Assembly (NCBI GenBank): GCA_007693955.1
Contig: RECR01000115.1
Location: 1-39,058 of the forward strand
Source of the DNA: Gloeocapsa sp. DLM2.Bin57
Lineage (GTDB): Bacteria; Cyanobacteriota; Cyanobacteriia; Cyanobacteriales; Gloeocapsaceae
DNA: 39,058 nt
Direction: 5' to 3'
This document shows positions 4,269-39,058 of the stretch, piece by piece. Numbering within the stretch: the first letter of the stretch is position 1; the number at the start of each line of letters is the position of its first letter. A program made the translations under genes and the position numbers. The notes beneath the pieces were generated by a model. That model had not been told where the DNA came from. It searched no databases and saw only the letters and a list, made by a program, of their open reading frames with translations.

Positions 4269-4347
4269 AAGGAATAAGGAATTAGTACTTATGAACTACT
4301 ATAACATTCTCTCCAAGAATAACAACCAAAAAGAGTACAAAAACGAT

Positions 4348-4353
4348 TATAAT
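4348..4353 (+). promoter_or_regulatory. Candidate -10 box of rpoC1
   Basis: A perfect TATAAT lies 54 bases before the rpoC1 ATG in the 138-base gap between divergent sbcC and rpoC1. No clear -35 box stands 16-18 bases upstream. The gap also contains ATTCT-N5-AGAAT (about 4306-4320) near a TATAGT that could serve sbcC on the other strand. Confidence 0.4.
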
Positions 4354-4406
4354 TAAGTTTTGGATTTAGCAAAAGTCCAAGTCTTTGGAAGTTCGACAAC
4401 CCGAAA

Positions 4407-6284: not shown

Positions 6285-6295
6285 AATCTAACATC

Positions 6296-6337
6296 CTCCC
6301 CACCCTTCTCTGAATCAGGGAAGGGTTCGGAGTTTTT
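6296..6337 (+). terminator. Rho-independent terminator after rpoC1
   Basis: CTCC (6296-6299) pairs with GGAG (6329-6332). Inside, a 12-base arm starting ACCCTTCTC (6302) pairs with the arm ending AAGGGT (6326), with one G-T wobble. Five T follow (6333-6337). The CATCCTCCCC start also resembles left ends of IS200/IS605 elements, so a decayed element end serving as terminator is possible. Confidence 0.75.
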
Positions 6338-6398
6338 GCAGTCAAAAAACCGAGCGATCGCTCAAAAAAAGAACTTTTCCTCAACCAAAGTTAGCATA

Positions 6399-6506
6399 TA
6401 TAGCAGTAGCCACCGAGTCACCGAGACAGTAGCCAGGAGGCAAACGATTACTAAGTATAGGTTTCACGATTGTAGAATGTCAAACACCATAGCGCGTACT
6501 GCTATA
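6399..6506. mobile_element. MITE-like element, copy A
   Basis: A 108-base element with perfect 10-base terminal inverted repeats, TATAGCAGTA (6399-6408) and TACTGCTATA (6497-6506). The right half (GTTTCA...AATGTC...GCGCGTACTGCTATA) matches copies B (8484-8591) and C (20102-20196), while the left half has diverged. It has no convincing coding content. It sits between the rpoC1 terminator and the mechanosensitive channel gene and may carry part of that gene's promoter. Confidence 0.6.
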
Positions 6507-6540
6507 AATACTGGTGCAATATCCAAGTAATAACGCAATT

Positions 6541-8388: not shown

Positions 8389-8483
8389 TATCGAATGAAA
8401 AATAAAATGCTAAAAATGAGTTAGGTATTAGGTGTTAGGTGTTCCCTTCTGTTATATTTTTAGCTTTCTTTTATCCCATTTGA

Positions 8484-8591
8484 TATAGCGCTACGTGCAA
8501 GGCACTCATGCACTCTCGCACTCTTGCAAGAGTAGATTAGCACTCGGTTTCATAACTTGAAAATGTCCTAAGCACAACGCGTACTGCTATA
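8484..8591. mobile_element. MITE-like element, copy B
   Basis: A 108-base element with imperfect terminal inverted repeats, TATAGCGCTACGTG (8484) and CGCGTACTGCTATA (ending 8591), 11 of 14 pairs matching. It contains three tandem octamers of the form GCACTCNN (8502-8525) and the perfect palindrome ACTCTTGCAAGAGT (8520-8533). Its right half is nearly identical to copy C. It ends 14 bases before the promoter of the PEP-CTERM gene. The rest of the 8389-8483 gap holds only an AT-rich stretch with a short TTAGGTG repeat. Confidence 0.65.
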
Positions 8592-8605
8592 ATTAATGTA
8601 CTATA

Positions 8606-8635
8606 TTGACAAACAAAAAAAACACTGTACAGTGT
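8606..8635 (+). promoter_or_regulatory. Promoter with 14-base palindrome before the PEP-CTERM gene
   Basis: TTGACA (8606-8611) is followed after 16 bases by TACAGT (8628-8633). That -10 candidate lies inside the perfect palindrome ACACTGTACAGTGT (8622-8635), which has the look of an operator. The gene starts at 8667. A one-base variant, ACTGTATAGTGT, occurs at 34253-34264. Confidence 0.5.
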
Positions 8636-8666
8636 AAAAGTCAAATAAATACAATTTATTACAAAA

Positions 8667-9131
8667 ATGAATAAAAAGACTTGGCTCAATAGCTTGATTC
8701 TCGGTTGTTTGATTTCGGCTAGCGCCAATGTAGCTCAAGCAGCGACTTTAACTGCTACTCCCACTCCTACTAATGATTTCTTTTCTTCTTTTACAATAGA
8801 ATTTGATGACGCAAACAATAACGGGATTCTTGATAGCAATGAAATATCATTACCTTTAGGACAGCCCGATTTTAGTGGTGTGACTACTACTAGTTCGATC
8901 TTTTACACTCAGGTAACTGAAATTGCTAATATAACAGGAATAACGCAAGGATTTAGTTTCGATGTCTGGGTTTTTCCAAACCCTAATGGTATTGGTTCGT
9001 CTGTTCAACAGGCAAGCTTGTGGAATTACGAAATAACAGGTGATAATATTATACCCGAACCGTTAACTATTCTTGGTACTGGTTTAGTAGCAGGATTTTT
9101 ACCTTTGTTAAAGAGACAAAAAAAATCATAA
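8667..9131 (+). CDS. Small exported PEP-CTERM protein with EF-hand-like loop
   Basis: A 154-residue exported protein. Residues 1-26 are a signal peptide ending AQAA. Residues 48-61 (DDANNNGILDSNEI) form a calcium-binding-type DxNxNG loop. The C-terminus is a PEP-CTERM sorting signal: PEP near 131, a short hydrophobic helix, then RQKK. Such proteins are processed by an exosortase and often end in the extracellular polymer layer. No exosortase or glycosyltransferase gene is in the window. The middle (TTTSSIFYTQV, then a Gly/Asn-rich part) matches nothing I recognise, so the specific role is unknown. The gene has its own palindromic promoter and a hairpin behind it, so it is probably monocistronic. 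Confidence 0.8.
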   Translation: MNKKTWLNSLILGCLISASANVAQAATLTATPTPTNDFFSSFTIEFDDANNNGILDSNEISLPLGQPDFSGVTTTSSIFYTQVTEIANITGITQGFSFDVWVFPNPNGIGSSVQQASLWNYEITGDNIIPEPLTILGTGLVAGFLPLLKRQKKS

Positions 9132-9149
9132 ATTAATTTCTTTCCTAGG

Positions 9150-9170
9150 GGGCGCTCATGAAAAGCGCCC
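9150..9170 (+). terminator. Hairpin after the PEP-CTERM gene
   Basis: GGGCGCT (9150-9156) pairs with AGCGCCC (9164-9170) around the loop CATGAAA. An AT-rich but not T-only tail follows, so this is a likely terminator. Confidence 0.6.
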
Positions 9171-9212
9171 TAATTGATCTAAAATAATTTCTATGGTGCA
9201 TTAAAGTATCAG

Positions 9213-9241
9213 TTGACCAAATTTGGCTTAACTGGTTCAAT
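9213..9241 (+). promoter_or_regulatory. Candidate promoter of the HerA-like gene
   Basis: TTGACC (9213-9218) and TTCAAT (9236-9241) are 17 bases apart. The palindrome CCAAATTTGG (9217-9226) overlaps the -35 side and could be an operator. No good Shine-Dalgarno precedes the ATG at 9260. Confidence 0.35.
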
Positions 9242-9259
9242 AGTACTTAAAAAACAACC

Positions 9260-10966
9260 ATGGAAAAAGCCCTAGGTACAGTTATACAAGGTTCATTAAG
9301 TCAAGGTTTAGAAGTAAGATTAAATCCCGATATATCTGTAGAAGATATGCGAGTTGGTAAATTTTTAGTAGTTCAAGGGGTACGTTCTCGCTTTTTTTGT
9401 CTTCTTACTGATGTTTGTTTGGGTACATCTAATCCTCGTATTAACGCTAATCCACCTAGTCCTAATGATACCTTGTTACAACAAATTTTAGCAGGGAGTG
9501 GCACTTATGGCACGATCGAACTCTCCCCGATGTTAATGTTAACCCTTCAAGATCAAACAGACAAATCATTTCAGCAGAAAACACCAACAGATACTAGTTT
9601 AGCTTCTTTTACTCCTCACACCAATACTAATCTACAATTAATGCCAGTTAAAACGATTCCTAGTCATTTTAGTCAAGTTTATGACGCTAGTGAACAAGAT
9701 TTTCGCCTCGTTTTTGGTTGGGAAGATGATCCGATTCATTGTAACTTTGCTATTGGTCAACCTTTAGATATGGATGTTCCCGTCTGTCTAGACTTAGAAC
9801 GCTTTGTCGAACGTAGTAATGGTGTATTTGGTAAATCAGGTACGGGTAAATCTTTTTTGACTCGCTTATTGATTTCGGGAATTATTCGTAAACAAGCAGC
9901 AGTAAATCTGATGTTTGATATGCACTCAGAATACGGTTGGGAAGCAATTAACGAAGGTAAACAATTTAGTACAGTAAAAGGATTGCGTCAACTATTTCCA
10001 GGAGAAGTAGAAATCTATACCCTAGATCCTGATTCTACTAAACGTCGTGGGGTAAAAGATGCACAAGAATTATTTCTCAGTTTGGATCAAATTGAAATCG
10101 AAGATATTCGTTTAGTTGGTTATGAGTTGGGAATATCTGAAGCGAGTTTAGATAACGCTAATATCCTCGAGGCCGAATTTGGCAAATCCTGGATTAATCA
10201 ATTATTGAATATGACTAATGAAGATATCCAGATGTTTTGTCTAGAAAAGCAAGGTCATAAAGGCTCTATAATGGCTTTGCAGCGTAAGTTAACTCGTCTG
10301 ACTAATCTTAAATATCTGCGTTCCGTTTGTCCCCACAATTATATTAAACGTATCCTAGAGTCTCTCGACGCGGGTAAACACGTGGTTATCGAATTCGGAT
10401 CTCAGTCTAATATGTTATCCTATATGTTAGCAACTAACATGATCACGCGTAGGATTCATAAAGCTTATGTCGAAAAAGCTGAAAAATTCCTACAGTCCAA
10501 AAAAGTAAGCGATCGCCCTAGACAATTGGTGATTACTATCGAAGAAGCCCACCGCTTTTTAGACTCTAGTATTGTACATCAAACTATCTTCGGGACGATC
10601 GCCCGAGAAATGCGCAAATATTTTGTTACCCTGCTAATTGTCGATCAACGCCCTTCAGGTATCGATAATGAAGTCATGTCTCAAGTTGGTACGCGTATAA
10701 CCTGTTTACTTAACGATGATAAAGACATTGACGCTATCTTTACAGGTGTCTCTGGTGGTCAAAATCTGCGTTCTGTTTTAGCTAAACTAGACTCTAAACA
10801 ACAAGCCTTAATCTTAGGTCACGCTGTACCTATGCCAGTAGTTGTCAGAACTAGACCCTATGATCAACAATTTTACAGCGAAATTGGCGAAGTAGCATGG
10901 CAAGAACTATCTGATCAAGAAGTTTTTGTAGCTGCTCAAAATGCTCTCAATGACTTAGAGTTTTAG
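9260..10966 (+). CDS. HerA-like P-loop ATPase (DUF87 family)
   Basis: A 568-residue ATPase of the HerA/FtsK superfamily. The N-terminal 60 residues look like the HAS-barrel of HerA (LGTVIQGSLSQGLEVRL...GKFLVVQG). Walker A is GKSGTGKS near 194. The Walker B region is RQLVITIEEAHRFLD near 430, with Glu-Glu as the catalytic acids. LLIVDQRPSGID near 457 and GTRITCLLNDDKDID are typical of DUF87 proteins, and the HAS-type end LILGHAVPMPVVVRTRP is present. Archaeal HerA works with the NurA nuclease in DNA end resection. No nurA-like gene is adjacent, so the partner and role of this cyanobacterial version are open. It is flanked by hairpins or long gaps, so probably monocistronic. Confidence 0.82.
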   Translation: MEKALGTVIQGSLSQGLEVRLNPDISVEDMRVGKFLVVQGVRSRFFCLLTDVCLGTSNPRINANPPSPNDTLLQQILAGSGTYGTIELSPMLMLTLQDQTDKSFQQKTPTDTSLASFTPHTNTNLQLMPVKTIPSHFSQVYDASEQDFRLVFGWEDDPIHCNFAIGQPLDMDVPVCLDLERFVERSNGVFGKSGTGKSFLTRLLISGIIRKQAAVNLMFDMHSEYGWEAINEGKQFSTVKGLRQLFPGEVEIYTLDPDSTKRRGVKDAQELFLSLDQIEIEDIRLVGYELGISEASLDNANILEAEFGKSWINQLLNMTNEDIQMFCLEKQGHKGSIMALQRKLTRLTNLKYLRSVCPHNYIKRILESLDAGKHVVIEFGSQSNMLSYMLATNMITRRIHKAYVEKAEKFLQSKKVSDRPRQLVITIEEAHRFLDSSIVHQTIFGTIAREMRKYFVTLLIVDQRPSGIDNEVMSQVGTRITCLLNDDKDIDAIFTGVSGGQNLRSVLAKLDSKQQALILGHAVPMPVVVRTRPYDQQFYSEIGEVAWQELSDQEVFVAAQNALNDLEF

Positions 10967-11093
10967 TAATTATCTCACCTCTGATTACGGTTATCTCTAT
11001 AGACTTCACTCAAATCTTAAGTCATTATAGTAATAACAGGTATAGAGAAAAATTTTAGTTAAGTTAGTTATCATTCATTGAACTTTTTTCGAG

Positions 11094-11126
11094 TTGCCGA
11101 CGTCTATTAATGTAGATAACATCTAC
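11094..11126 (+). promoter_or_regulatory. Candidate promoter/operator of the sigma factor gene
   Basis: TTGCCG (11094-11099) and TAACAT (11117-11122) are 17 bases apart. The inverted repeat GTAGAT-AAC-ATCTAC (11112-11126) lies over the -10 box, which suggests repressor control. Downstream, AAGTC-ATGAC-GACTT followed by TTTTTAT (about 11141-11162) could be a weak attenuator. The 269-base leader contains no open reading frame worth calling. Confidence 0.4.
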
Positions 11127-11235
11127 TAAGCAAGAATAAAGTCATGACGACTTCGTTTTTATAGTAACTTGCATATCTATAGAGTTAGTTAGAACTAGGC
11201 AAACAACCATCTCAAGAGGAGTCAACAAGAGAGCA

Positions 11236-12222
11236 ATGCCCACTGCCAAAGACACAACAACCACAAATAAACCATTATTCTCGGCAGATATGGTTCGTAC
11301 TTATCTCCACGAGATTGGTAGAGTACCCTTGCTTACCCCAGAACAAGAGATAAACTATGGGAAGCAAGTGCAAAAAATGATGAGTTTATTAGAAATAAAA
11401 CAAGAACTCCAGAAAAAACAAGCTAGAGAAATAAGCTTAGAAGAATGGGCAGAAAAAGCCCAAATGGAAGTAAAAGAGCTAGAAAAAGCTCTCGAAAAAG
11501 GAGAAAGAGCTAAGCGTAAGATGATTGAAGCCAATCTACGCCTAGTGGTAGCGATCGCCAAGAAATACCAAAAACGAAACATGGAATTTTTAGATCTAAT
11601 CCAAGAAGGAAGTCTCGGGTTAGAAAGAGGAGTAGAGAAATTTGATCCCACCAAAGGGTTTAAATTTTCCACCTACGCTTACTGGTGGATACGTCAAGCG
11701 ATTACCAGAGCGATCGCCCAACAAGGTCGTACGATTCGACTACCAATTCATATTACCGAAAAACTCAATAAAATCAAGCGAACTCAACGAGAATTATCAC
11801 AAAGATTAGGACGCAATCCTACTCCAAGTGAAATCGCCGAGGAATTAGAACTAGAGCCTTCCCAAATTCGGGAATACTTAAGTGTAGCTCGTCAACCCAT
11901 TTCTCTAGACGTAAGAGTAGGAGACAATCAAGATACCGAACTATCGGAATTATTAGAAGATCAAAGCGCATCTCCAGATCAATTTATCACCCAAGAGTTA
12001 TTACGCCAAGACTTAAGGGATTTGCTAGACGAACTAACCCCCCAACAAAAAGCCGTAATTAGTTTGCGCTTCGGGTTAGAAGACGGTAAAGAATTATCCT
12101 TAGCCAAAATTGGTAAAAAACTCGAACTCAGTCGCGAGAGAGTGCGCCAACTAGAGCATCAAGCCCTAGCTCATCTACGAAAACGTCGTGAGAATATACA
12201 AGAATACATAGTAGCTAGTTAG
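11236..12222 (+). CDS. Group 2 (RpoD-like, non-essential) sigma factor
   Basis: A 328-residue sigma-70 family protein. Region 1.2 is DMVRTYLHEIGRVPLLT (19-35). Region 2 contains EANLRLVVAIAKKYQKRN, LDLIQEGSLGL and FSTYAYWWIRQAITRAI (about 138-160, covering 2.3/2.4). Region 3 is IHITEKLNKIKRTQREL and region 4 ends with a helix-turn-helix LSRERVRQLEHQALAHLR. It lacks the long region 1.1 of SigA, so it belongs to the cyanobacterial group 2 (SigB/C/D/E) set, used in darkness, heat, nitrogen or light stress. I cannot say which of these it is from sequence alone; SigB/SigD look closest. AGAGGAG lies about 15-20 bases before the ATG. The long leader with an inverted repeat points to regulated expression, and a hairpin closes the unit. 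Confidence 0.93.
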   Translation: MPTAKDTTTTNKPLFSADMVRTYLHEIGRVPLLTPEQEINYGKQVQKMMSLLEIKQELQKKQAREISLEEWAEKAQMEVKELEKALEKGERAKRKMIEANLRLVVAIAKKYQKRNMEFLDLIQEGSLGLERGVEKFDPTKGFKFSTYAYWWIRQAITRAIAQQGRTIRLPIHITEKLNKIKRTQRELSQRLGRNPTPSEIAEELELEPSQIREYLSVARQPISLDVRVGDNQDTELSELLEDQSASPDQFITQELLRQDLRDLLDELTPQQKAVISLRFGLEDGKELSLAKIGKKLELSRERVRQLEHQALAHLRKRRENIQEYIVAS

Positions 12223-12230
12223 AACTTATG

Positions 12231-12262
12231 ATCCCCGTAGGCTAAAAACGGGGATTCAAATT
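12231..12262 (+). terminator. Terminator after the sigma factor gene
   Basis: ATCCCCGT (12231-12238) pairs perfectly with ACGGGGAT (12248-12255) around a 9-base loop, followed by TCAAATTTT. Confidence 0.75.
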
Positions 12263-12332
12263 TTAGCTAAGTCAATCAGAGCGAGCAACATACGTTAAAA
12301 TCAAGGAAATCCTTGAGCAAGAGTGATCATCA

Positions 12333-14063
12333 ATGTCAGAAAAAATGCCCTTGGAGCAGATACCAATTACAGACGATTTAGACAAATTATTAGAAATATT
12401 ACCTAATGTAATAGCAGAAAACCTTAAACAACACCCTCAAAAAAATGAACTAGTAGAAGTAGTCATGGACTTAGGAAGACTACCAGAAGCTCGTTTTCCA
12501 AGAGGGAGTATCGATCTTAGCAATCAACCCATAACCAAAGAAGACTTAGCACAATCAATAGCCAAAGTAGGTTATTTTAGTGGCGATAATCGAGCAGGAA
12601 TCGAAAGAACCTTACATCGAATTAGCGCCATGCGCAACCGCAGTGGCGAAATAATCGGTTTAACTTGTCGAATTGGGCGTGCTATTTTCGGGACGATCGC
12701 CATGATTCGGGAATTAGTAGAAAGTGAAAAATCAATCCTCTTATTAGGACGTCCTGGAGTAGGTAAAACTACAGCTCTCAGAGAAATAGCCCGAGTCTTA
12801 GCCGATGACTTACACAAAAGAGTAGTAATTATCGACACATCCAACGAAATAGCAGGAGATGGAGATATACCCCATCCCGCCATCGGTCGCGCTCGTCGTA
12901 TGCAGGTATCACGACCAGAACTACAGCATCAAGTCATGATTGAAGCAGTAGAAAACCATACACCAGAAGTAATCATTATCGACGAAATTGGGACAGAATT
13001 AGAAGCCCTAGCCGCTCGCACCATCGCTGAAAGAGGAGTACAATTAGTAGGAACAGCTCACGGTAACCGTTTAGAAAATTTAATCAAAAACCCCACCCTA
13101 TCAGACTTAGTAGGAGGGATTCAAACAGTTACCCTAGGAGATGATGAAGCCCGACGCCGTAACTCACAGAAAACCGTTTTAGAGCGTAAAGCTCCCCCAA
13201 CCTTCGCGATCGCCATAGAAATGATCGAAAAACAACGCTGGGTAGTACATCAAGACGTAGCCCAAACCGTAGATGCCTTATTAAGAGGTTATTCTATCCC
13301 TGTAGAAGTGAGAACAGTTGACTCATTCGGAGAGATCCAAATCAGTCAAGAAACACCGCGGGAACCTACAGAAATCACTCCTGTGCAAACCAACTTAAGA
13401 GCAATCCCCCTAAAACCCACAGGGTGGAGAGCATCAGGGCGAATGATACCCCTTCCTAACCAGAATGAGCAAAACTTCGATACTTTGATTGAACAATCCT
13501 GGCAACAAAAAGAACCAGAAACAGATAAAATACGTGTACCAGGACCTAGTGGTGAAGATTGGCCCATTTATCTCTATCCCTATGGGATCGCTCGTTCTCA
13601 ACTAGAGCAAATCATTGATATACTCAACCTACCCATAGTTTTAACTAAAGACTTTGAAAGCGCAGACGCCGTTTTAGCCTTGCGTTCCCAGATTAAAAAT
13701 AACAATAAACTGCGTCAGATGGCAAAAAGTTTTCAAATACCTATCTATGGGGTTAAATCTAACAGTATTCCTCAAATTAGTTACGGTTTAAAACAACTAC
13801 TTAATCAAGACGACTCACCAACAGCAGAAACCATAGAGCTGAGTATCCTTGCTCAAGGAGGGAATGACGACGAAATCGAAGCACTAGAAGAAGCTAGATT
13901 AGCTGTAGAACAGATTGTAATTCCACGTAAGCAAGCGGTAGAATTACTGCCACGTTCAGCTAAAGTACGTAAAATGCAGCATGAACTAGTAGAACATTAC
14001 AGGTTACAGTCAGACAGCTTAGGAGAAGAACCTAACCGCCGTTTACGTATTTACCCAGCCTAA
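12333..14063 (+). CDS. Ycf45-like R3H domain AAA ATPase
   Basis: A 576-residue protein of the Ycf45/SpoIIIAA-like family, found in cyanobacteria, red algal plastids and plant chloroplasts. The ATPase core has Walker A LLGRPGVGKTT (near 143), Walker B EVIIIDEIGTELEA (near 212) and sensor region GTAHGNRLENLIKNP (near 238). A conserved TVTLGDDEARRRNSQKTVLE segment follows. The last 60 residues, with KQAVELLPRSAKVRKMQHEL and EEPNRRLRIYPA, look like the R3H nucleic-acid-binding domain. The role is not established; plant members affect early plastid development. It starts 110 bases after the sigma factor terminator region. The palindrome TAGCCTAGGCTA (14094-14105) lies between it and the next gene. 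Confidence 0.88.
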   Translation: MSEKMPLEQIPITDDLDKLLEILPNVIAENLKQHPQKNELVEVVMDLGRLPEARFPRGSIDLSNQPITKEDLAQSIAKVGYFSGDNRAGIERTLHRISAMRNRSGEIIGLTCRIGRAIFGTIAMIRELVESEKSILLLGRPGVGKTTALREIARVLADDLHKRVVIIDTSNEIAGDGDIPHPAIGRARRMQVSRPELQHQVMIEAVENHTPEVIIIDEIGTELEALAARTIAERGVQLVGTAHGNRLENLIKNPTLSDLVGGIQTVTLGDDEARRRNSQKTVLERKAPPTFAIAIEMIEKQRWVVHQDVAQTVDALLRGYSIPVEVRTVDSFGEIQISQETPREPTEITPVQTNLRAIPLKPTGWRASGRMIPLPNQNEQNFDTLIEQSWQQKEPETDKIRVPGPSGEDWPIYLYPYGIARSQLEQIIDILNLPIVLTKDFESADAVLALRSQIKNNNKLRQMAKSFQIPIYGVKSNSIPQISYGLKQLLNQDDSPTAETIELSILAQGGNDDEIEALEEARLAVEQIVIPRKQAVELLPRSAKVRKMQHELVEHYRLQSDSLGEEPNRRLRIYPA

Positions 14064-14131
14064 ACTAAATTAGCAATAATCGCCAAAATTTGATAGCCTA
14101 GGCTAATAGCTTTGGGAATGGAAAAAAGACA

Positions 14132-22166: not shown

Positions 22167-23378
22167 ATGACAGAAGCAAGAAAACAAGTCTGTATAATCG
22201 GTGGAGGGTTTGGAGGGTTATATACAGCCCTACGTTTAGATGAACTATCCTGGGAAAATATAGGTAAACCCCAAATAACTTTGATAGATAAAAACGATCG
22301 CTTTTTATTTAGTCCCTTACTTTACGAACTCTTAAGCGGGGAAATGCAAGCTTGGGAAATAGCCCCTAATTATAGCGAATTATTAAAAGATACAGAAGTA
22401 CAATTTAGTCAAACCTCGGTTAAAAGTCTTGATATCGGGCAAAAACAGCTTAAACTAGATGACGACACAGAATTACACTGCGATCGCCTAGTTATCGCTA
22501 CAGGAGGAAATACCCCTCTAGATTTTGTACCTGGTGCAGCAACATACGCTATCCCCTTTCGTACTCTAGAAGACGCCTATTTACTCGCCGAAAGACTCAA
22601 AAGTCTGGAGCAATCCTCAACTAATTATATTCGTATTGCCATCGTCGGTGGTGGTTATAGTGGAGTAGAATTAGCTTGTAAACTAGCAGATAGACTAGGA
22701 GAAAGAGGACGTATTCGCATTGTCGAACGTGGAGATAATATACTGCGCAATTCCCCAGAATTTAACCGAGAAACAGCGAAAAAAGCCCTAGAAGCTAGAA
22801 AAGTCTGGTTAGATTTAGAAACGGAAATTCAACGTATAGAAGCAGATAACCTTACCCTAGTTTATAAAAATCAAATAGATACCATACCAGTAGATCTAGT
22901 TTTATGGACAGTAGGTACAAAAGTATCACCTTTTATCCAACAATTACCACTTCCACATGATAACTATGGTTATTTAAAGACTAACTCCTATTTACAAGTG
23001 GAGGGAGAATCCCATCTCTATGCTCTCGGAGATGTAGCCACCAGTCAAGATGCTACAGGTCAACAAATACCCAAAACCGCCCAAGCAGCTATACAACAAG
23101 CCGATTATTGCGCCTGGAATATTTGGGCTAGTTTAACCGGACGCCCTTTATTACCTTTTCGCTATCAACCCCTAGGGGAAATGATGACTCTCGGTGTAGA
23201 TAACGCTACCCTTAGTGGTTTAGGTCTAAAATTAGAAGGTATCCCTGCTCATCTAATTAGACGTCTAATTTATCTCTATCGCTTACCTACCCGTAAACAT
23301 CAACTCAATGTCGGTTTAAATTGGTTAGCACAACCCCTATTACAATTCTTGCAGCAAGAGGAGGGTGTTCAAATTTAA
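22167..23378 (+). CDS. Type II NAD(P)H dehydrogenase (NDH-2/Ndb)
   Basis: A 403-residue FAD enzyme that passes electrons from NAD(P)H to quinones without pumping protons. The FAD site is CIIGGGFGGLYTALRL near the N-terminus. The NAD site is IAIVGGGYSGVELACKLADR near 152. The second FAD motif is LYALGDVA near 288. The C-terminal 60 residues contain an amphipathic stretch (LIRRLIYLYRLPTRKHQLNVG) that may hold the enzyme to the membrane. Cyanobacterial Ndb proteins also act in redox sensing and phylloquinone/vitamin K biosynthesis. I cannot assign it to NdbA, B or C from sequence alone. The HAD gene begins 6 bases after its stop, so they form one operon. Confidence 0.9.
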   Translation: MTEARKQVCIIGGGFGGLYTALRLDELSWENIGKPQITLIDKNDRFLFSPLLYELLSGEMQAWEIAPNYSELLKDTEVQFSQTSVKSLDIGQKQLKLDDDTELHCDRLVIATGGNTPLDFVPGAATYAIPFRTLEDAYLLAERLKSLEQSSTNYIRIAIVGGGYSGVELACKLADRLGERGRIRIVERGDNILRNSPEFNRETAKKALEARKVWLDLETEIQRIEADNLTLVYKNQIDTIPVDLVLWTVGTKVSPFIQQLPLPHDNYGYLKTNSYLQVEGESHLYALGDVATSQDATGQQIPKTAQAAIQQADYCAWNIWASLTGRPLLPFRYQPLGEMMTLGVDNATLSGLGLKLEGIPAHLIRRLIYLYRLPTRKHQLNVGLNWLAQPLLQFLQQEEGVQI

Positions 23379-28997: not shown

Positions 28998-30455
28998 TTA
29001 GAATTCAAAGTAGATAAAATCAGCGGGAGAATTAGAGGCTAATAAGATAGATAAACCCAATAGTAGGGGAGATATCCAGGGAGATAACAATAACTCGTAT
29101 TCAAATTTCTGTTGCCAAATCGCTAGATGTTCTAGGAATAACACCCCAATAGATAATAATAAGAGAATAACTAGTACAGTTCCCTCATTGATCGTATAAT
29201 TGTCCCCTACCTGAGTTAAATTATGCCAAGAATAATCCCAAGGAGTGAGGATAGTTTGCAATTTAGCTAATAACCTTCTACTATTAGTATCCATAAAGAA
29301 GAGACACCCAAGGATAACTGAAGCAAAAGTTAAACCCCAAGAGATAAACTCTGATTGAGAGACATATTGATTAACCCATTTTTGAAATGGTCTGCCTAAA
29401 TAGCGTAAAATAAGCAATAAAGACCCATGATAAGCACCCCAAATAATAAAATTCCAAGCTGCACCATGCCAAAATCCTGAGAGAGTAAAAGTTATAAACA
29501 GGAAAAAGGCTGCCCAACTTTTATTAAGATTCATTAAGGGTAAAAAGATATAATCTCTAAACCATGTACTCAAGGTAATATGCCATCTGCGCCAAAATTC
29601 GTTGATACTTTGAGATGTATAGGGGGCTAAGAAATTAATGGTTAATTTTATTCCTAGAAACTTAGCTATTCCTACCGCGATAAAACTATAACCCGCGAAG
29701 TCAAAATAGATTCTCAGAGTAAATAAAAAGGCTTGTAACCATATTAACCAAGGATTTCCTTCTAAACTAGGGTCTATGTATAATGCTAAATTATCTCCTA
29801 GTACAAACTTCAGAAATAAACCTAGGGATAACCAGCGTAAACCATCATAACAGTTAGACCAAGTAAATTTAAATTGAAAGGATTGTAACTGAGGAAATAA
29901 ATCAATTTTACGTTCAATAGGTCCGGCTACTAATTGAGGGAAAAAAGCGATAAAATTAACGTAGTCTAAGAAGTTAATTGGTTTTTTCTTTCTGGCTTTA
30001 AAAGAATCTACTACAAACGCAATCATCTGAAATGTATAAAAAGAAACCCCTGGAGGAATGGAGGTTTTAACCGGGAGAATAAAATTATCTTGCCAATTAG
30101 TTGATACACCAATAAATAAACCGATAACGTCTTCTACCAAAAAGGTTAAGTACTTAAAATAAGCTAATACAGCTACATTAAAAACTATCACTATGGTAGC
30201 GATCAATTTAGCTGACCAACCTTGACGGCGCAACATTAAGCTAACCATCAAGTAGTTAAAAACTATCTCAAAGATAAAGACAATAAAACTAGCTTGACTG
30301 GCGCTCAAAAATAGGGTTAAAGAGAGAATTAATAAACCATAACTATCAAATTTGGGCTGCCAAAAATTAGTTATTTTACCGAGGAAACGTAAACTAAAAA
30401 AAGATAGACTAAATAGTAGCAGAATCCACCAGAAAGAAAAATCAGAATAATTCAC
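28998..30455 (-). CDS. MBOAT-family O-acyltransferase (AlgI/DltB-like)
   Basis: A 485-residue protein with about ten membrane segments. Family marks are FFPQLVAGPIERKIDLFPQL (about 171-190), INEFWRRWHITLSTWFRDYI (about 284-303) and TLSGFWHGAAWNFIIWGAYHG with the invariant catalytic His at 330. AlgI and DltB move acetyl or D-alanyl groups onto polymers outside the membrane. DltB takes its acyl group from a carrier protein. Here the gene directly follows an acyl carrier protein gene (6-base gap) in an operon with a fatty acyl-AMP ligase, so a fatty acyl-ACP is the likely donor. The start is GTG. No DltD- or AlgJ-type SGNH partner is in the window, and the acceptor is unknown. Confidence 0.92.
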   Translation of the reverse strand: MNYSDFSFWWILLLFSLSFFSLRFLGKITNFWQPKFDSYGLLILSLTLFLSASQASFIVFIFEIVFNYLMVSLMLRRQGWSAKLIATIVIVFNVAVLAYFKYLTFLVEDVIGLFIGVSTNWQDNFILPVKTSIPPGVSFYTFQMIAFVVDSFKARKKKPINFLDYVNFIAFFPQLVAGPIERKIDLFPQLQSFQFKFTWSNCYDGLRWLSLGLFLKFVLGDNLALYIDPSLEGNPWLIWLQAFLFTLRIYFDFAGYSFIAVGIAKFLGIKLTINFLAPYTSQSINEFWRRWHITLSTWFRDYIFLPLMNLNKSWAAFFLFITFTLSGFWHGAAWNFIIWGAYHGSLLLILRYLGRPFQKWVNQYVSQSEFISWGLTFASVILGCLFFMDTNSRRLLAKLQTILTPWDYSWHNLTQVGDNYTINEGTVLVILLLLSIGVLFLEHLAIWQQKFEYELLLSPWISPLLLGLSILLASNSPADFIYFEF

Positions 30456-30461
30456 CCGCGG

Positions 30462-30752
30462 TTAGGAAATAATATTAGATAGGTCAAAGTTTTGGGCTAA
30501 ATATTGAGCAGCTTGAGCTATACTAGGATAATCCCAAAATAAAGTAGCCGGGAGTTCCTCATCTAACCAGTCTTCTAATTCTCCTACTAGTGTTACCGCG
30601 TCGATAGAGTCTAAACCATAACGAGTCAGGGGTTGGTTTAAATCAAGTTGACCAGGGTCTAGAGAGAGATTAGCAGCAATTTGCTTAACTAACCAATTTT
30701 GAATGATTGTTTCAGGAGTATTAGTTTTGCAGTTGGAGTCTTGGAGTTGCAT
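30462..30752 (-). CDS. Acyl carrier protein
   Basis: A 96-residue stand-alone carrier protein. Ser49 in YGLDSIDAVTLVGELED would carry the 4-phosphopantetheine arm, and LFWDYPSIAQAAQYLA is the usual helix III-IV region. It resembles PKS/FAAL-associated carriers (GLDSI with FWDYP) rather than the fatty acid synthase AcpP. The start was set at 30752: GAGG (30762-30765) lies 9 bases upstream, ideal spacing, whereas an ATG at 30761 directly touches that Shine-Dalgarno. It overlaps the dehydrogenase gene by 32 bases and is followed by the MBOAT gene after 9 bases or fewer, so all are one transcript. Confidence 0.93.
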   Translation of the reverse strand: MQLQDSNCKTNTPETIIQNWLVKQIAANLSLDPGQLDLNQPLTRYGLDSIDAVTLVGELEDWLDEELPATLFWDYPSIAQAAQYLAQNFDLSNIIS

Positions 30753-32508
30753 TAATTTCATCCTCGTTAGCTAATTGGATAGGAATTAGAGAAAATTGTC
30801 TATTCTCTTGATATAGTTTAAGCATATACTGAGTGATATTTTCAACATATACCTGATCAAGATAATATGCCATAGGTCTAATGGTACGTAACAAGCGATG
30901 CAAACTTAAGACTAACCATTCACCCTCGGCGAAAAATTCCCCTAATCTGTCTCGATTATAAAGCCAAAAATGGAGACAACAACAAGCAGCATGAAGGGTA
31001 CAATATTTTTGCGCTATTGCAAACGTTTCTGGTGATTGTTCATGACCAAAAGCAAATTGAGATTGAGTGATAGTTTGGTCATGGTTGTCTAATTCTGTCA
31101 AGATGATTTGAGTTAAATCCTGCAGATGATTAATTACGGTCGGATTAACTGTGGTAAGGTTTCTAAGGGTTGTTTGGGCGATTTCTAACCCTTGTAGGGG
31201 GTAATCTATACCTCTACCGAATAAAGATAATTTTGTCCCGTCAAAAGTGGGTAAGGGTTTGTCTAGGGAGAAAATCTCAGCTAGACTAGAGGAAATCTGA
31301 TCATAAGTTTCGGGTTGACGGCGATCGCGATATTTAGTTAATTGACGTAGTTGTAAAATCAAAGCGTGTAAATTGACTACACTACTTCCGTCGAACATAC
31401 TAATAATCGAGTTATCCCGTAGTAGTTTTTGAAAGATCCCCCAATCGTGTTCTTCTCTGAAATAAAAGCGTGATCCTAACACTACTGAGACGTTATTGAT
31501 CATCGTTTCCAGACGAGTAGTGACGAAGTATTTAACTACTGCTGACCAAACGCTAAATTGTTGGGGTATGATGTGAAAACCTCTAGCTGAGGGAATAGTT
31601 TCACATTCACAAATCAGAATATCTAGAAAAGCATCGGTAAGGGTTTGACGAGGTTGGGGTAAGTCAATAACTTTTTTCTGGTATATTTGACGATTGAGGG
31701 CAAAATTTAAGGTAGTTCTTAATGCAGTATCAGCAGCGCCATGAGAAAAAGCTGCACAAAGTGTACGGGTAATTTGAAATCCTTTTAAGGCTAATTCTAA
31801 ACCATCTCCTTCTTGTTGGAGTAGGTGTGTCTCGGGGATGAAGCAATCTTTAAACCCAATTCCACTCATATCAGAAGCGCGAATCCCATGAGTCAGGATT
31901 TTGGGCAAGTTATAATAATTATCAGGGCTAATTTCGTTTTTGTGGATTTGAAATAAGCTGAGAGATTTAGGAGTAGCTTCTGAGTTAGTTTTGGCGAGAA
32001 TATAACTAACCGTGGAACGAGTTGCGCGATTGATGGGCCATTTTTCCCCGTTGAAAAGATAACCTCCTGAGACTTTAGTTGCGTGAAGATCTCCCCCAAT
32101 TAGGTCGCTGCCGTGTTCCTTTTCGGAGTAACCTAGACACATTGTACCTTTTTGTTGTGTAATTTCTTGAGCTAGTTTGGTTTTTTGTGCGGTTGTTCCC
32201 CCAATCCAGGTTAAGAAAGACCAAAATAGGGTAGTCATGGCGATGGCTATAGTTTGGTCTCTTCTGGCTAAAACCCTGATAATAGCTACTAATTCTTCAA
32301 AGCAGGTAAATTTACCCCCATATTCAGCGGGTACATAATAGTTGTGTAATCCCCAATCATATAGCCAATCAATTTCTGTTTGGGGAAAAATTTCACTTTC
32401 ATCTATAGCGATTACTTTAGCAAAAGACATGACCGATTCGGGATTATAGGGGTCTCCTAAACTTTGTTCTAGACTTTCGGCGATGTGATATTGTGATCTT
32501 CTATCCAT
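30721..32508 (-). CDS. Acyl-CoA/acyl-ACP dehydrogenase-like flavoprotein
   Basis: A 595-residue protein of the acyl-CoA dehydrogenase fold. The N-terminal helical domain (about 1-120) has LYDWGLHNYYVPAEYGG. The beta domain has CLGYSEKEHGSDLIGGDLHA, corresponding to the ALTEPxAGSD flavin-contact motif. The C-terminal helical domain runs LLRDNSIISMFDGSSVVNLH near 362-381. In that last motif the usual catalytic Glu of YEGT is Asp373 (FDGS). About 190 further residues follow, making it longer than a normal 380-residue enzyme. Beside a FAAL and an ACP, it would introduce a double bond into an ACP-bound acyl chain. It overlaps the ligase gene by 40 bases. Confidence 0.85.
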   Translation of the reverse strand: MDRRSQYHIAESLEQSLGDPYNPESVMSFAKVIAIDESEIFPQTEIDWLYDWGLHNYYVPAEYGGKFTCFEELVAIIRVLARRDQTIAIAMTTLFWSFLTWIGGTTAQKTKLAQEITQQKGTMCLGYSEKEHGSDLIGGDLHATKVSGGYLFNGEKWPINRATRSTVSYILAKTNSEATPKSLSLFQIHKNEISPDNYYNLPKILTHGIRASDMSGIGFKDCFIPETHLLQQEGDGLELALKGFQITRTLCAAFSHGAADTALRTTLNFALNRQIYQKKVIDLPQPRQTLTDAFLDILICECETIPSARGFHIIPQQFSVWSAVVKYFVTTRLETMINNVSVVLGSRFYFREEHDWGIFQKLLRDNSIISMFDGSSVVNLHALILQLRQLTKYRDRRQPETYDQISSSLAEIFSLDKPLPTFDGTKLSLFGRGIDYPLQGLEIAQTTLRNLTTVNPTVINHLQDLTQIILTELDNHDQTITQSQFAFGHEQSPETFAIAQKYCTLHAACCCLHFWLYNRDRLGEFFAEGEWLVLSLHRLLRTIRPMAYYLDQVYVENITQYMLKLYQENRQFSLIPIQLANEDEINATPRLQLQN

Positions 32509-34226
32509 TTGGCTATATAAGTAATTTTATCTGCTAAAAAGTTATTTTTAATACTACGACGCTGGATTTTACCACTAGCGGTTTTTAAGATGTGACCAGG
32601 TTTGCTTAACAAGATAGCATAAGGGCTTAACTCGTGTGTAGAGGCGATCGCTTCGCGAATATCACCGAGTAATTGATTTAAGTCTAAATCCTGATTACCT
32701 CGTTCTAATTCTTGAATAATAACTACTTTTTCTTCTTCTTGTTTGGTGATAGAAAAAACCGCGCCATAATCTGGACGTAAAGCGGGATGTACCTTTTGTA
32801 CAGTCCATTCTAAATCTTGGGGATAATGATTAGTTCCATGGATAATGATTAAGTCTTTGAGTCTTCCTGTGATATAGAGTTCACCGTCGAGATAAAAACC
32901 GAGATCTCCGGTGCGTAAAAAAGGTCCTGTAGTGTTATCCTGAAGATAAGCTTGGAAGGTTGCTTGTGTTTCTTCTTCCCGTTGCCAATAACCTTGAGTC
33001 ACGCTAGGATCTTTTAACCAAATTTCCCCTACTTCTGTAGGTTGACAAGGAGTGAAGGTATCGGGATTGACGATCGCACATTGAGTTGTTCCTACTAACC
33101 TTCCACAACTAACCAGGATTTTTACTCCTGTTGTTTGTTCTGATGGTGCAATAATTATGTTACCCTGTTCTAAGGCTTTGCTATCTACCCTGAGTAAGAC
33201 TGGATCTGTACCTTTTGGTTTACTAGAAGCTAATAGGGTGTTTTCTGCTAAGCCGTATGCAGGGGCAAAAGCTGACCAACGAAAACCGTAGGAAGAGAAA
33301 CGGTGGTAAAATTCCTTCATTACTTTTGGGTTAATTGGTTCAGCTGCGTTTCCTGCTGCTTCCCAACAACTCAAGTCTAATGTTTGTCCTGATTTATATC
33401 TACGCACGCACAAATCATAGGCAAAATTAGGAGCTTGACTATGAGTAACACGAAATTCGGATATGTTCTGTAGCCATTGTAACGGTTTTTTGATAAAGGC
33501 AAAAGGCGACATTAAGTAACAAGGTGTACCGTTGTAGAGGGGTACGGTGATACCTTCTACTAAACCATAATCGTGAAAATAGGGCATCCAGGTTAGGGTA
33601 AGACTATTGCTGTCATAACCGCAAGCTGTTTGCAGGGAGTTAGCGTGGTACATCAGGTTAAAATGACTAAGCATAACTCCTTTAGGAGTAGAGGTAGATC
33701 CAGAAGTATATTGTAAATAGGCTAACTCATCTTTAGTAATTGCTGGCGTTACCCATTCTGGGGCTAGATTTAAATCAATGGTGGTGGTATCTAACCACTG
33801 CATTTGCTCGAATTCGGGGAATTCTTCCTTGACGTTGGCTACCAAATCAATAATTGTCTGAGTCGTGAGCACAAAGGTAGCTTGAGCATCTCTTACTATA
33901 GCACTTAAACGGGGTAGAGTCCTTTTTAGACGCCCCGATTCTGGAGGAGGAGTAGGAATGGCGATCGCCCCTGCGTATAAACAACCACAAAAAGCGGCTA
34001 CTACTTCTAAACCTTGGGGATATAGTAATAAGACTCTTTCTCCATATGCTGAGTATTGTTGCAACCAAGCGGCGATCGCCCTAGCTTGACGATCTAATTC
34101 TCCATAAGTCAGAGGAGGTGTCGGTTTTTTGCCGTTGACTAAAAAAATATAACCTGGACTATTTGGTACGACTTGAGCTCTATGACGTAATAGTTCTACT
34201 AAAGTTGTCGGAATTTGTTTATTCAT
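32469..34226 (-). CDS. Fatty acyl-AMP ligase (FAAL)
   Basis: A 585-residue adenylate-forming enzyme that activates a free fatty acid as acyl-AMP and loads it on a carrier protein. The core motif YTSGSTSTPKG is at 173-183. WMPYFHDYGLVEGI is near 213. An insertion with ALEQGNIII and the FAAL-typical KILVSCGRLVG lies near 351-379. LRTGDLGFYLDGELYITGR is near 437, and the catalytic Lys is K553 in KTASGKIQRRS. These features separate it from acyl-CoA synthetases. The ATG at 34226 is used; a TTG 21 bases upstream is less likely. It is the first gene of the FAAL, dehydrogenase, ACP, MBOAT operon. No PKS or NRPS modules are nearby, unlike most FAAL loci. Confidence 0.92.
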   Translation of the reverse strand: MNKQIPTTLVELLRHRAQVVPNSPGYIFLVNGKKPTPPLTYGELDRQARAIAAWLQQYSAYGERVLLLYPQGLEVVAAFCGCLYAGAIAIPTPPPESGRLKRTLPRLSAIVRDAQATFVLTTQTIIDLVANVKEEFPEFEQMQWLDTTTIDLNLAPEWVTPAITKDELAYLQYTSGSTSTPKGVMLSHFNLMYHANSLQTACGYDSNSLTLTWMPYFHDYGLVEGITVPLYNGTPCYLMSPFAFIKKPLQWLQNISEFRVTHSQAPNFAYDLCVRRYKSGQTLDLSCWEAAGNAAEPINPKVMKEFYHRFSSYGFRWSAFAPAYGLAENTLLASSKPKGTDPVLLRVDSKALEQGNIIIAPSEQTTGVKILVSCGRLVGTTQCAIVNPDTFTPCQPTEVGEIWLKDPSVTQGYWQREEETQATFQAYLQDNTTGPFLRTGDLGFYLDGELYITGRLKDLIIIHGTNHYPQDLEWTVQKVHPALRPDYGAVFSITKQEEEKVVIIQELERGNQDLDLNQLLGDIREAIASTHELSPYAILLSKPGHILKTASGKIQRRSIKNNFLADKITYIAKWIEDHNITSPKV

Positions 34227-34733: not shown

Positions 34734-34973
34734 TTAGGCTGTAGTAGTTACCTTAACTAAACTAGCTTCACTGCGACGTATAGCGATTTCTGTTGTACTG
34801 CCTACTCTAACTTGTAAAGGTCCTCCTAGAATTGCCGATCTTAACACGCGTATTGGTTTCCCTGGAGTCATGCCCATAGCTTCTAGTCGGATTTTAAAGC
34901 GTTCGTCTCTGGCTTCGGTTTGAATTGCTTCTACTAGGGCTATTTGGTTGATATCGAGTTCTTGTAGTGTCAT
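34734..34973 (-). CDS. feoA: FeoA-family protein
   Basis: A 79-residue SH3-like FeoA domain. Family features are MTLQELDINQIALVEAI, RLEAMGMTPGKPIRVL and GGPLQVRVGSTTEIAIRRSEA. FeoA binds the cytosolic part of the ferrous iron transporter FeoB. The start was put at 34973 because the family begins MTLxEL and CAGG lies close upstream; an ATG at 35006 would add 11 basic residues and shorten the gap to the ArsR gene to 8 bases. No feoB is adjacent. Its operon partner is an ArsR regulator, so iron or another metal may control the pair. Confidence 0.85.
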   Translation of the reverse strand: MTLQELDINQIALVEAIQTEARDERFKIRLEAMGMTPGKPIRVLRSAILGGPLQVRVGSTTEIAIRRSEASLVKVTTTA

Positions 34974-35014
34974 AGTACCTGTCTTTTTTTTGCTAATAAT
35001 TCTCATTATATCTT

Positions 35015-35314
35015 TTAATTGCTGCGAACAGGTAAAACAACATTGAAGCGGCGATACTCGGCTAGATATTGTTCTAAATCTACTAGTTGAGAAAGGTTTA
35101 AACTATAGTAAATCCATTTCCCCTCTTGGCGAGAACGTAATAAACCTGCGTCTTTAAGAGTTTTGAGGTGAAAAGATAGCTTAGATTGTCTAATATTGAG
35201 CAGATTAGATAGTTCACAGACGCATAATTCTTGGGATTTAAGTAGTTCGAGGATTTCGAGACGAATAGGTTCAGAAAGAGCCCGAAAACCTTTTAAGATG
35301 AGAATATTTGCCAT
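35015..35314 (-). CDS. ArsR/SmtB-family metal-responsive repressor
   Basis: A 99-residue winged-helix repressor. ALSEPIRLEILELLK is the typical N-terminal helix. ELCVCELSNLL carries the two Cys of the alpha-3 metal or metalloid site (ELCVCDL in ArsR). IRQSKLSFHLKTLKDAGLL is the recognition helix and RQEGKWIYYSLN the wing. It would release DNA when thiol-binding metals or arsenite are bound. It lies just upstream of the FeoA-like gene in the same direction, an unusual pairing that suggests a metal-response operon. Its target operator may be the A/T-rich inverted repeat just upstream. Confidence 0.9.
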   Translation of the reverse strand: MANILILKGFRALSEPIRLEILELLKSQELCVCELSNLLNIRQSKLSFHLKTLKDAGLLRSRQEGKWIYYSLNLSQLVDLEQYLAEYRRFNVVLPVRSN

Positions 35315-37884: not shown

Positions 37885-39058
37885 TTAATAACCGTAACCA
37901 TCAAAAATACTACTACCTATACCAGGGATACCACTACCAGGAATCCCGGTAAGATCTACTTCAGACCAAGGAATCCAACTCTCAATAGGAACAAGATTAT
38001 TCAAGTGGTCGAGCCAATTAGTCAAGGCATCCTCTGAACCGTCTAATCTCGGAAATCCTGAGTTATTACCCTCTCCTCCAACTGAAGGAACAAGATTATT
38101 CAAGTGGTCGAGCCAATTAGTCAAGGCATCCTCTGAACCGTCTAATCTCGGAAATCCTGAGTTATTACCCTCTCCTCCAACTGAAGGAACAAGATTATTC
38201 AAGTGGTCGAGCCAATTAGTCAAGGCATCCTCTGAACCGTCTAATCTCGGAAATCCTGAGTTATTACCCTCTCCTCCAACTGAAGGAACAAGATTATTCA
38301 AGTGGTCGAGCCAATTAGTCAAGGCATCCTCATTTATACTAGAACGAGAATTATTATTACTCGAACTAGTTCTTAATCTCAGATTATAATCAGTATTAGC
38401 ATCCTCAAAAGCATAAACCCTGATATAGTATGTACCTGGCTCTAGTGTTTCATTAATATTTTCTGCTCTTGTTCCTCCTCGGTTAGAGATAGCAATTCCT
38501 GTACCGTCAGAATCTAACAACATCACATCAGCATCAGCACTTAAACGATTAAGAGTCAAATTGAGATCAGTAGTTCTATTCACAGAGAAACGATAATAAT
38601 CATTGGAGTCATTTTCCCCCACAAAATCCTGGATTCTCAGATTAGATAGACTGCCGAGATTAACCGCTCTTCTTAAGCTATTACCGTCTTCCCTATTTAT
38701 ACTAGAACGAGAATTATTATTACTCGAACTAGTTCTTAATCTCAGATTATAATCAGTATTAGCATCCTCAAAAGCATAAACCCTGATATAGTATGTACCT
38801 GGCTCTAGTGTTTCATTAATATTTTCTGCTCTTGTTCCTCCTCGGTTAGAGATAGCAATTCCTGTACCGTCAGAATCTAACAACATCACATCAGCATCAG
38901 CACTTAAACGATTAAGAGTCAAATTGAGATCAGTAGTTCTATTCACAGAGAAACGATAATAATCATTGGAGTCATTTTCCCCCACAAAATCCTGGATTCT
39001 CAGATTAGATAGACTGCCGAGATTAACCGCTCTTCTTAAGCTATTACCGTCTTCCCTA
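37885..39058 (-). CDS. Surface-type protein with PPC domains and 33-residue repeats (partial, 5-prime end outside)
   Basis: At least 390 residues; the reading frame continues to the right edge without a stop, so the true start is outside. From the N-terminal side come two identical 121-residue units, each a PPC (bacterial pre-peptidase C-terminal) beta-sandwich: NDYYRFSVNRTTDLNLTLNR, ADADVMLLDSDG, ETLEPGTYYIRVYAF, YNLRLRT. Then come three identical 33-residue units plus a part of a fourth (EDALTNWLDHLNNLVP...NNSGFPRLDGS), and a Gly/Pro/Ile-rich tail (LTGIPGSGIPGIG). PPC domains occur in secreted proteases and calcium-rich surface proteins. The 33-residue unit has no family I know; its amphipathic first half suggests a helix. 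Function is unknown; adhesion or a secreted enzyme is plausible. Confidence 0.85.
   Translation of the reverse strand, partial: REDGNSLRRAVNLGSLSNLRIQDFVGENDSNDYYRFSVNRTTDLNLTLNRLSADADVMLLDSDGTGIAISNRGGTRAENINETLEPGTYYIRVYAFEDANTDYNLRLRTSSSNNNSRSSINREDGNSLRRAVNLGSLSNLRIQDFVGENDSNDYYRFSVNRTTDLNLTLNRLSADADVMLLDSDGTGIAISNRGGTRAENINETLEPGTYYIRVYAFEDANTDYNLRLRTSSSNNNSRSSINEDALTNWLDHLNNLVPSVGGEGNNSGFPRLDGSEDALTNWLDHLNNLVPSVGGEGNNSGFPRLDGSEDALTNWLDHLNNLVPSVGGEGNNSGFPRLDGSEDALTNWLDHLNNLVPIESWIPWSEVDLTGIPGSGIPGIGSSIFDGYGY
37988..38331. repeat. Perfect 99-bp tandem repeat, 3 full copies plus 47 bases
   Basis: Units start at 37988, 38087 and 38186, with a partial unit at 38285. They look identical base for base and keep the reading frame (33 codons). 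Confidence 0.95.
38332..39057. repeat. Perfect 363-bp tandem repeat, two copies
   Basis: 38332-38694 and 38695-39057 are identical by eye (121 codons, one PPC unit each). Base 39058 agrees with the start of a third unit, so the array probably continues outside. Confidence 0.95.

Follow-up and report, generated by a model that had tools for sequence, protein, structure and literature searches.

The operon on one strand of a 39,058-nucleotide stretch of Gloeocapsa sp. DLM2.Bin57 (contig RECR01000115.1, called here the window) encodes a fatty acyl-AMP ligase (FAAL), an acyl dehydrogenase (ACAD), a free acyl carrier protein (ACP) and a membrane-bound O-acyltransferase (MBOAT). From sequence comparisons we judge, on balance and with moderate confidence, that it belongs to a cyanobacterial acyl-export module that would resemble the Dlt system in its working but carry a fatty acid. 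The original prediction of four overlapping or abutting genes on one strand was borne out: all four lie on the minus strand, in the order FAAL, ACAD, ACP, MBOAT in its 5′ to 3′ direction, with overlaps of 40 bases between FAAL and ACAD and 41 between ACAD and ACP and a gap of 6 bases before the MBOAT gene, and the family calls agree between Pfam and NCBIfam. The three components on which the proposed Dlt-like logic depends, an adenylating enzyme, a free carrier protein and an MBOAT, are likewise present. The set is larger than the four genes first described, however, as further members encoding an SGNH-type protein, an NDH-2-like flavoprotein and a membrane protein with a DCC1-like domain (DCC) sit on other contigs of the same genome (G000; 3.45 Mb, 138 contigs, 99.95% complete).

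In the pathway that we propose, the FAAL would turn a fatty acid into acyl-AMP in the cytosol and load it onto Ser52 of the ACP, the ACAD would oxidize the chain while it is bound to the ACP, and the MBOAT would move the acyl group from the ACP arm onto its own Tyr482, within the C-terminal peptide FIYFEF, at the outer face of the membrane. An exported SGNH partner (Ser61, Asp280 and His282 or His284) would then take the acyl group from Tyr482 and hand it to an acceptor outside the cytoplasm, possibly a glycan. The MBOAT had been expected to pass the acyl group to the final acceptor itself; its part in export is retained here, but its own C-terminal tyrosine is the likelier target, and the candidate acceptor-side enzyme is the SGNH protein encoded on another contig. 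Two loci, one in the carrier genome G141 and the other around a second SGNH copy of genome G235, encode a glycosyltransferase of the LA_3751 type, which scores over its cut-off, and, both under theirs, a WbuC-like cupin and a LegC-like aminotransferase; these glycosyltransferase-type neighbors, together with those at the DCC locus of the window genome, weakly point to a glycan as the acceptor.

The members of this set are inherited together. Close orthologs of the MBOAT, ACAD, SGNH and DCC proteins share one set of 17 of the 386 genomes in our phylum sample, in which these four were searched (the FAAL search covered 20 selected genomes and that for the NDH-2-like protein 36), plus one decayed copy in genome G383. 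Besides the window's own copy, MBOAT orthologs occur in 16 genomes at 62–70% identity over the whole length, and among the matches listed all others reach at most 43%, save for a stop-containing fragment in G383 (64%). ACAD orthologs (58–70%) occur in the same 16 genomes, the next matches being 45% in G227 and then at most 32%, apart from the G383 fragments and a 41-residue match in G318. Full-length SGNH relatives of at least 53% identity (53–59% to the own copy) are found only in the 17 genomes, again with fragments in G383, and DCC orthologs (48–55%) in the same 17. FAAL orthologs (59–68%) are present in all 16 other carriers; NDH-2-like relatives reach 48–55% in 15 of them and 45% in G129, there directly upstream of the DCC gene. 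The chance of hitting an identical set of 17 of 386 genomes in two random draws is 5e-30, a figure far too strong because the genomes are related; yet presence is patchy within genera: among the genomes named in the search outputs, g31 has one carrier in four, g6 one in five and g1 one in two, and the MBOAT, ACAD, SGNH and DCC orthologs agree in presence each time.

Gene order, which the original prediction had proposed to check in cyanobacterial genomes, is conserved as well in several lineages. Seven of the 16 other carriers (G129, G060, G305, G189, G326, G074 and G229) have the four genes contiguous and in this order; in two more (G141 and G105) ACAD, ACP and MBOAT stay together while the FAAL gene has been relocated. 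The seven genomes of genus g22 possess the complete set, but at separate places for FAAL, ACAD-ACP and MBOAT-SGNH-NDH2, with DCC at a fourth. Eight loci were recovered from named genomes, mostly of Coleofasciculus and relatives: six have the four genes in order, one is cut by a contig end and the eighth, from Winogradskyella, is a distant ACAD alone (26%) without the set; the closest named relative of the ACAD is on an uncultured Gloeocapsa contig (87%). As order is conserved in 7 of 16 other carriers, and the set is partly kept or split but complete in the rest, the operon grouping is more than chance. The longer order FAAL-ACAD-ACP-MBOAT-SGNH-NDH2-DCC is seen in 6 of the 16 genomes and on 5 named contigs, two of which have one extra gene inside. 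Where the set is split, members still pair: SGNH with NDH2 in the window genome, SGNH with DCC in G141 and G105, and NDH2 with DCC in G129. In G383 (locus L057, G383:C1:438001-458000), fragments of FAAL, ACAD, MBOAT, SGNH, NDH2-like and DCC genes lie adjacent in the usual order, several with stops, and no ACP fragment was seen at this locus; the pattern is that of a module decaying as a unit.

The ACP has no evident competing employer in its own genome. Its Ser52 is invariant in all 16 aligned sequences, and a search of the window genome found no other pathway or user for it: there are two PP-binding matches (the operon ACP and one beside a ketosynthase on contig C135, which we take as the ACP of fatty acid synthase), two ketosynthase matches and no condensation domain. 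A role in supplying starter units to a polyketide synthase (PKS) or nonribosomal peptide synthetase (NRPS) is thus excluded in the window genome, as the original prediction had it; this exclusion applies to that genome, the other carriers having 3 to 32 PP-binding matches.

The SGNH partner and the MBOAT together show the features of bacterial MBOAT-SGNH pairs, namely two predicted active-site histidines and a C-terminal F-I/L-Y motif in the one and a putative SGNH fold with serine, aspartate and histidine in the other. The SGNH gene (C56:34890-35810 in the window genome, where the NDH-2-like gene overlaps its end) has a product of about 310 residues and adjoins the MBOAT gene in 14 of the 16 other carriers. 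Alignment reveals the motifs GGSGxHYTIN and FADTHYH, and all 15 sequences share Ser61, Asp280, His282 and His284; a structure predicted from six sequences (pLDDT 65, pTM 0.70; residues 1–34 and 119–180 poor) matches SGNH hydrolases at Z of about 11–13, including E. coli TesA with octanoate, the top row at 13.9 being a designed scaffold. Foldseek alone gave five matches at E of at most 0.001 (best 1e-4), with low TM-scores, and the SGNH profile, run against PDB sequences, returned one chance match (E 0.98). Because of the invariant residues and the matches of the model to SGNH hydrolases, we assign the product, as modeled, to the SGNH fold, the class that usually partners bacterial MBOATs. DltD, AlgX, AlgJ and PatB folds are not named among the best 50 rows of either structure search, which is no evidence of their absence, and the OatA catalytic domain is. 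There are five weaker SGNH relatives (24–34%), in other genomes or present as second copies, of which four lie 0.4–0.5 kb from another MBOAT match.

The only solved MBOAT relative found by sequence is DltB (E 1e-28). His292 and His330 of the window MBOAT align with His289 and His336 of DltB, the active-site histidines of that enzyme (PMC11035591), and the C-terminus reads FIYF(E/S)F in all 24 full-length orthologs (FIYFEF in 23, FIYFSF in one). In the PatA-PatB system, as described in PMC12148441, the MBOAT acylates a tyrosine in its own C-terminal hexapeptide and a serine of the SGNH partner then accepts the acyl group, whereas in Dlt the same source places the acyl-shuttle peptide on DltX; the annotated Listeria DltX ends FIYNEF. 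By analogy, the window MBOAT more likely acylates its own C-terminal tyrosine than the final acceptor. A PLGG(N/S)R loop that is present in 18 of 18 other MBOATs examined, nearly all of them cyanobacterial and from the phylum sample, is absent in all 24 orthologs, possibly reflecting the loss of a coenzyme A (CoA) contact. In a midpoint-rooted tree of 38 rows, the comparison with DltB, AlgI and PatA that had been called for, the operon MBOATs are not nested among 22 AlgI/PatA-like rows (a group with support 87/91, below the threshold for a star); they form a starred clade of their own (12 rows), apart from the four DltB or DltB-like rows as well, in a tree for which the program warns of long branches meeting.

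Measured against Dlt (DltX, DltA, DltB, DltC and DltD; D-alanylation of teichoic acids in the walls of Gram-positive bacteria), the module shares an adenylating ligase, a free carrier protein with a DSI site, a DltB-related MBOAT, an FIYxEF shuttle peptide and an SGNH-type partner. It differs in having a fatty acyl ligase rather than an amino acid ligase, in adding an ACAD and two redox proteins, and in carrying the shuttle peptide fused to the C-terminus of the MBOAT rather than on a separate DltX, a gene for which no search was made. No lipoteichoic acid is expected in a cyanobacterium. With a separate MBOAT clade, a shortened DltC-docking helix and an SGNH protein that lacks detectable DltD similarity, the comparison supports Dlt logic and does not support Dlt membership. 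A compact dlt-like operon on a Klebsiella electrica plasmid (locus L115, 2433-6485) encodes DltD, a short open reading frame, an MBOAT, an AMP-binding protein and an ACP; its MBOAT forms a very long branch in our tree.

The PatA-PatB and AlgI-AlgJ/X acetylases have an MBOAT with a fused C-terminal tyrosine peptide and a separate SGNH protein, as the module does, but those described in PMC12148441 use acetyl-CoA as donor without a carrier protein, while the module has a FAAL and an ACP and its MBOAT lacks the PLGG(N/S)R loop. The three cytosolic enzyme types recur in the starter cassettes of lipopeptide clusters. An example is the A. baumannii operon A1S_0112-0119 (PMC5376624), in which A1S_0112 is an AMP ligase, A1S_0113 a dehydrogenase and A1S_0114 an ACP. 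These cassettes feed an NRPS, of which the window genome has none. A full-length ACAD relative is listed in A. baumannii (36% over 97%), which may or may not be the A1S_0113 gene. The animal enzymes HHAT, PORCN and GOAT are described as MBOATs that likewise place fatty acyl groups on secreted targets. They use acyl-CoA donors and protein acceptors, and are not known to have an ACP or an SGNH partner.

Several observations weigh against a carrier-protein-dependent, Dlt-like pathway. The SGNH protein has no Pfam or NCBIfam family match, its profile aligns with one DltD at 0.1% probability in hhalign, and a hydropathy scan found no clear membrane anchor, the N-terminus being moderately hydrophobic with a best 19-residue window below 1.6 in every one of 15 sequences. 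All 17 of the other cyanobacterial MBOATs whose end is intact likewise have the fused shuttle peptide, which therefore marks MBOAT-SGNH chemistry, not the use of an ACP. Likeness to DltB is not special to the window MBOAT either, as the DltB model TIGR04091 (equivalog cut-off 375) gives it 179 bits but gives two other cyanobacterial MBOATs 154 and 140. DltB holds DltC through Met302, Val305, Ile306, Met309, Lys312 and Arg317 (PMC11035591), and this cytoplasmic docking helix is 9 residues shorter in the window MBOAT; Met309 and Lys312 have counterparts in a HMMER alignment and none in a MAFFT alignment. When paired with DltC by position from the serine, the ACP has Ile53 and Val56 at the hydrophobic contacts but Thr57 in place of the salt-bridging Glu40. 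Both halves of the salt bridge seem to be missing together, which would be consistent with either an altered mode of docking or none. The ACP alignment matched one DltC in hhalign at 1.8% probability (E 0.027) over 27 columns only, and the predicted MBOAT structure is poor (pLDDT 41, pTM 0.44, 8 aligned sequences) and unfit for docking. Finally, the FAAL is less specific than the other members, a non-carrier of the same genus as a carrier (G121) having a 54% FAAL, and the carrier genomes are related and hence are not independent events.

The chemistry of the first two enzymes bears on what would be exported. NCBIfam fatty-acid–AMP ligase models score 360–420 bits against the FAAL, all below their cut-offs, and outscore the amino-acid adenylation model (158 bits), which argues for a fatty acid substrate. 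Its top solved relatives (E 7e-149) are titled polyketide synthase and are followed by FadD32, FadD23, FadD28 and a fatty acyl-adenylate ligase. A single comparison with a DltA gave 24% identity over 486 columns (E 5e-18); a gap in that BLAST alignment, the sole sign of a FAAL-specific insertion, was not counted.

The ACAD, whose roughly 600 residues include a C-terminal region, at about 395–595, beyond the usual 380, has acyl-CoA dehydrogenases as solved relatives (E 4e-19) and likely desaturates the acyl chain. The predicted desaturation of an ACP-bound chain thus remains plausible, but the usual catalytic glutamate, presumably that at Glu376 of medium-chain acyl-CoA dehydrogenase, is an aspartate: Asp373 (FDGS) occupies this place in all 34 module-type rows, counting fragments and the cousin at locus L094, where ten ordinary ACAD rows have YEGT (nine) or YAGT (one). 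It is conceivable on this account, if rather unlikely, that the enzyme is an oxygen-dependent oxidase, a reductase or a non-redox carrier-protein partner, any of which would be compatible with export. The best NCBIfam match, acryloyl-CoA reductase, would favor such a departure, although it falls far under its cut-off (86.5 of 640 bits), as would the co-inheritance of two redox proteins and the failure to find an alpha subunit of the electron transfer flavoprotein (ETF) in any of 20 genomes (the control was positive in 10 of 14), a result by which the ACAD needs another electron acceptor. The retained FAD-region pattern SEKEHGSD and C-terminal RD argue for a conventional dehydrogenase, as does the fact that most other relatives listed from NCBIfam and the PDB are dehydrogenases acting on CoA or carrier-protein thioesters. 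A role in beta-oxidation was rejected given the same ETF result and a biosynthetic gene context.

Two further readings concern the pathway as a whole. The oxidized acyl-ACP made by the FAAL, ACAD and ACP could be released or esterified by the MBOAT and SGNH proteins as a small secreted lipid (a free acid, an ester or a glycolipid) and not attached to a surface polymer; we regard this as unlikely. It would fit the SGNH model, which most resembles TesA thioesterase, platelet-activating factor acetylhydrolase and carbohydrate esterases, and the known use of FAAL-ACAD-ACP cassettes for secreted lipopeptides, for example A1S_0112-0114 (PMC5376624), but the bacterial MBOAT-SGNH pairs with an FIYFEF-type C-terminal motif described in PMC12148441 act on envelope polymers, and in two genera an SGNH gene stands beside the glycosyltransferase, cupin and aminotransferase genes noted above. 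Alternatively, a cytosolic FAAL-ACAD-ACP pathway and an ordinary acetyl-CoA-type surface acetylase may have been co-inherited by chance, an explanation suggested by the different loci of the two halves in genus g22, by the AlgI/PatA-like fused shuttle peptide and by the scores of other MBOATs on the DltB model. We find it quite improbable, since the 17 of 386 genomes that hold one half also hold the other and the two decay jointly in G383, no other ACP pathway was found in the window genome, and the MBOAT belongs to a separate deep clade whose orthologs uniformly lack the PLGG(N/S)R loop.

Returning to the acyl-export module, its further members, an NDH-2-like flavoprotein and the DCC protein of the membrane, probably have a redox role. 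Of the DCC proteins, the copy at locus L039 scores over the cut-off for the DCC1-like domain (PF04134) and the own copy below it; a weak likeness to SdpB (TIGR04033) is seen in the N-terminal part, and we take the protein type to be HTTM. Searches of open-licence PubMed Central (PMC) found no literature on HTTM with a DCC or carboxylase phrase. Further DCC copies, in carriers and other genomes, reach at most 40% at full length and 46% in part, with some match in 28 of 386 genomes. NDH-2-like paralogs in the 19 tested genomes without an intact module (G383, G121 and G227 included) reach as much as 48%, so that membership of the NDH-2-like protein rests on linkage, the separation in identity from paralogs being small.

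Two loci outside the window carry members or relatives of the set. At the DCC locus of the window genome (L058, 7383-14227, G000:C66), genes for DCC, a second MBOAT with an FLYFQF end, a DUF1574-like protein, a PgfS-like glycosyltransferase and a large membrane protein stand in a row, the DUF1574-like and PgfS-like matches both being under their cut-offs; this is perhaps a second MBOAT unit of the genome, for glycan modification. Locus L094 of genome G227 (G227:C275:10001-30000; 4100-14109) encodes a FAAL, a fatty-acid hydroxylase-like protein, a second FAAL, an ACAD (44% to the window's) and an ACP (45%), and continues with a BioF/serine-palmitoyltransferase-like enzyme and an SDR. It looks like a cousin cassette in which the FAAL-ACAD-ACP trio would feed sphingoid-base synthesis.

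The positions of the window features are collected below. An FtsH gene lies 69 bases beyond the MBOAT gene; upstream of the operon and on the same strand, genes for a FeoA-like small protein and an ArsR-type regulator were read by eye at 34734-35314. A repeat-rich protein at 37885-39057, truncated by the contig end, has 33-aa SEDALTNWLDHLNNLVPSVGGEGNNSGFPRLDG repeats, with longer repeats upstream of those, again as read by eye.

Table. Positions in the window of the operon genes and of an NDH-2-like paralog, with domain evidence and expected roles.
Feature	Position	Strand	Evidence and expected role
FAAL	32469..34226	-	AMP-binding 206 bits and C-terminal DIP2-like domain; expected to adenylate a fatty acid and load the ACP
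ACAD, acyl dehydrogenase of about 600 residues	30721..32508	-	Three Pfam ACAD domains over cut-off; expected to oxidize acyl-ACP
ACP, free-standing carrier protein	30462..30761	-	PP-binding 58 bits; phosphopantetheine site Ser52 (GLDSID)
MBOAT, membrane acyltransferase	28998..30455	-	PF03062 74.5 bits; His292, His330, C-terminal shuttle peptide FIYFEF (Tyr482)
NDH-2-like paralog, not part of the module	22167..23378	+	Only 44% identity to the module's own NDH-2-like protein

The original prediction knew of no characterized system with exactly this set, and our searches of open-licence PMC likewise found no description of it, no paper joining a FAAL, an MBOAT and an acyl carrier protein, and no example of such Dlt-like envelope lipidation, although searches so confined are weak evidence of absence. 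For cyanobacteria together with MBOAT and SGNH, one paper was listed. The FAAL-ACAD-ACP cassette and the MBOAT-SGNH pair are each known, however, and by these searches only their combination is new. The donor in the MBOAT-SGNH systems described in PMC12148441 is acetyl-CoA or, for Dlt, carrier-bound D-alanine. We put forward only tentatively, leaning slightly against it, the fuller picture of a carrier-protein-dependent MBOAT-SGNH pathway that, with redox proteins of its own, exports a long-chain oxidized fatty acyl group and attaches it to a glycan on the surface of a photosynthetic bacterium. A fatty-acid version of this chemistry supplied by a FAAL and an ACP, if true, would link the starter-unit chemistry of lipopeptides with acylation of the cell envelope, and cyanobacteria with the module would be predicted to have a lipidated component at their surface. 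It gives a FAAL, an ACAD and an ACP that stand without a PKS or NRPS a testable job, and it offers a natural experiment in how an MBOAT might switch from a CoA donor to a carrier-protein donor.

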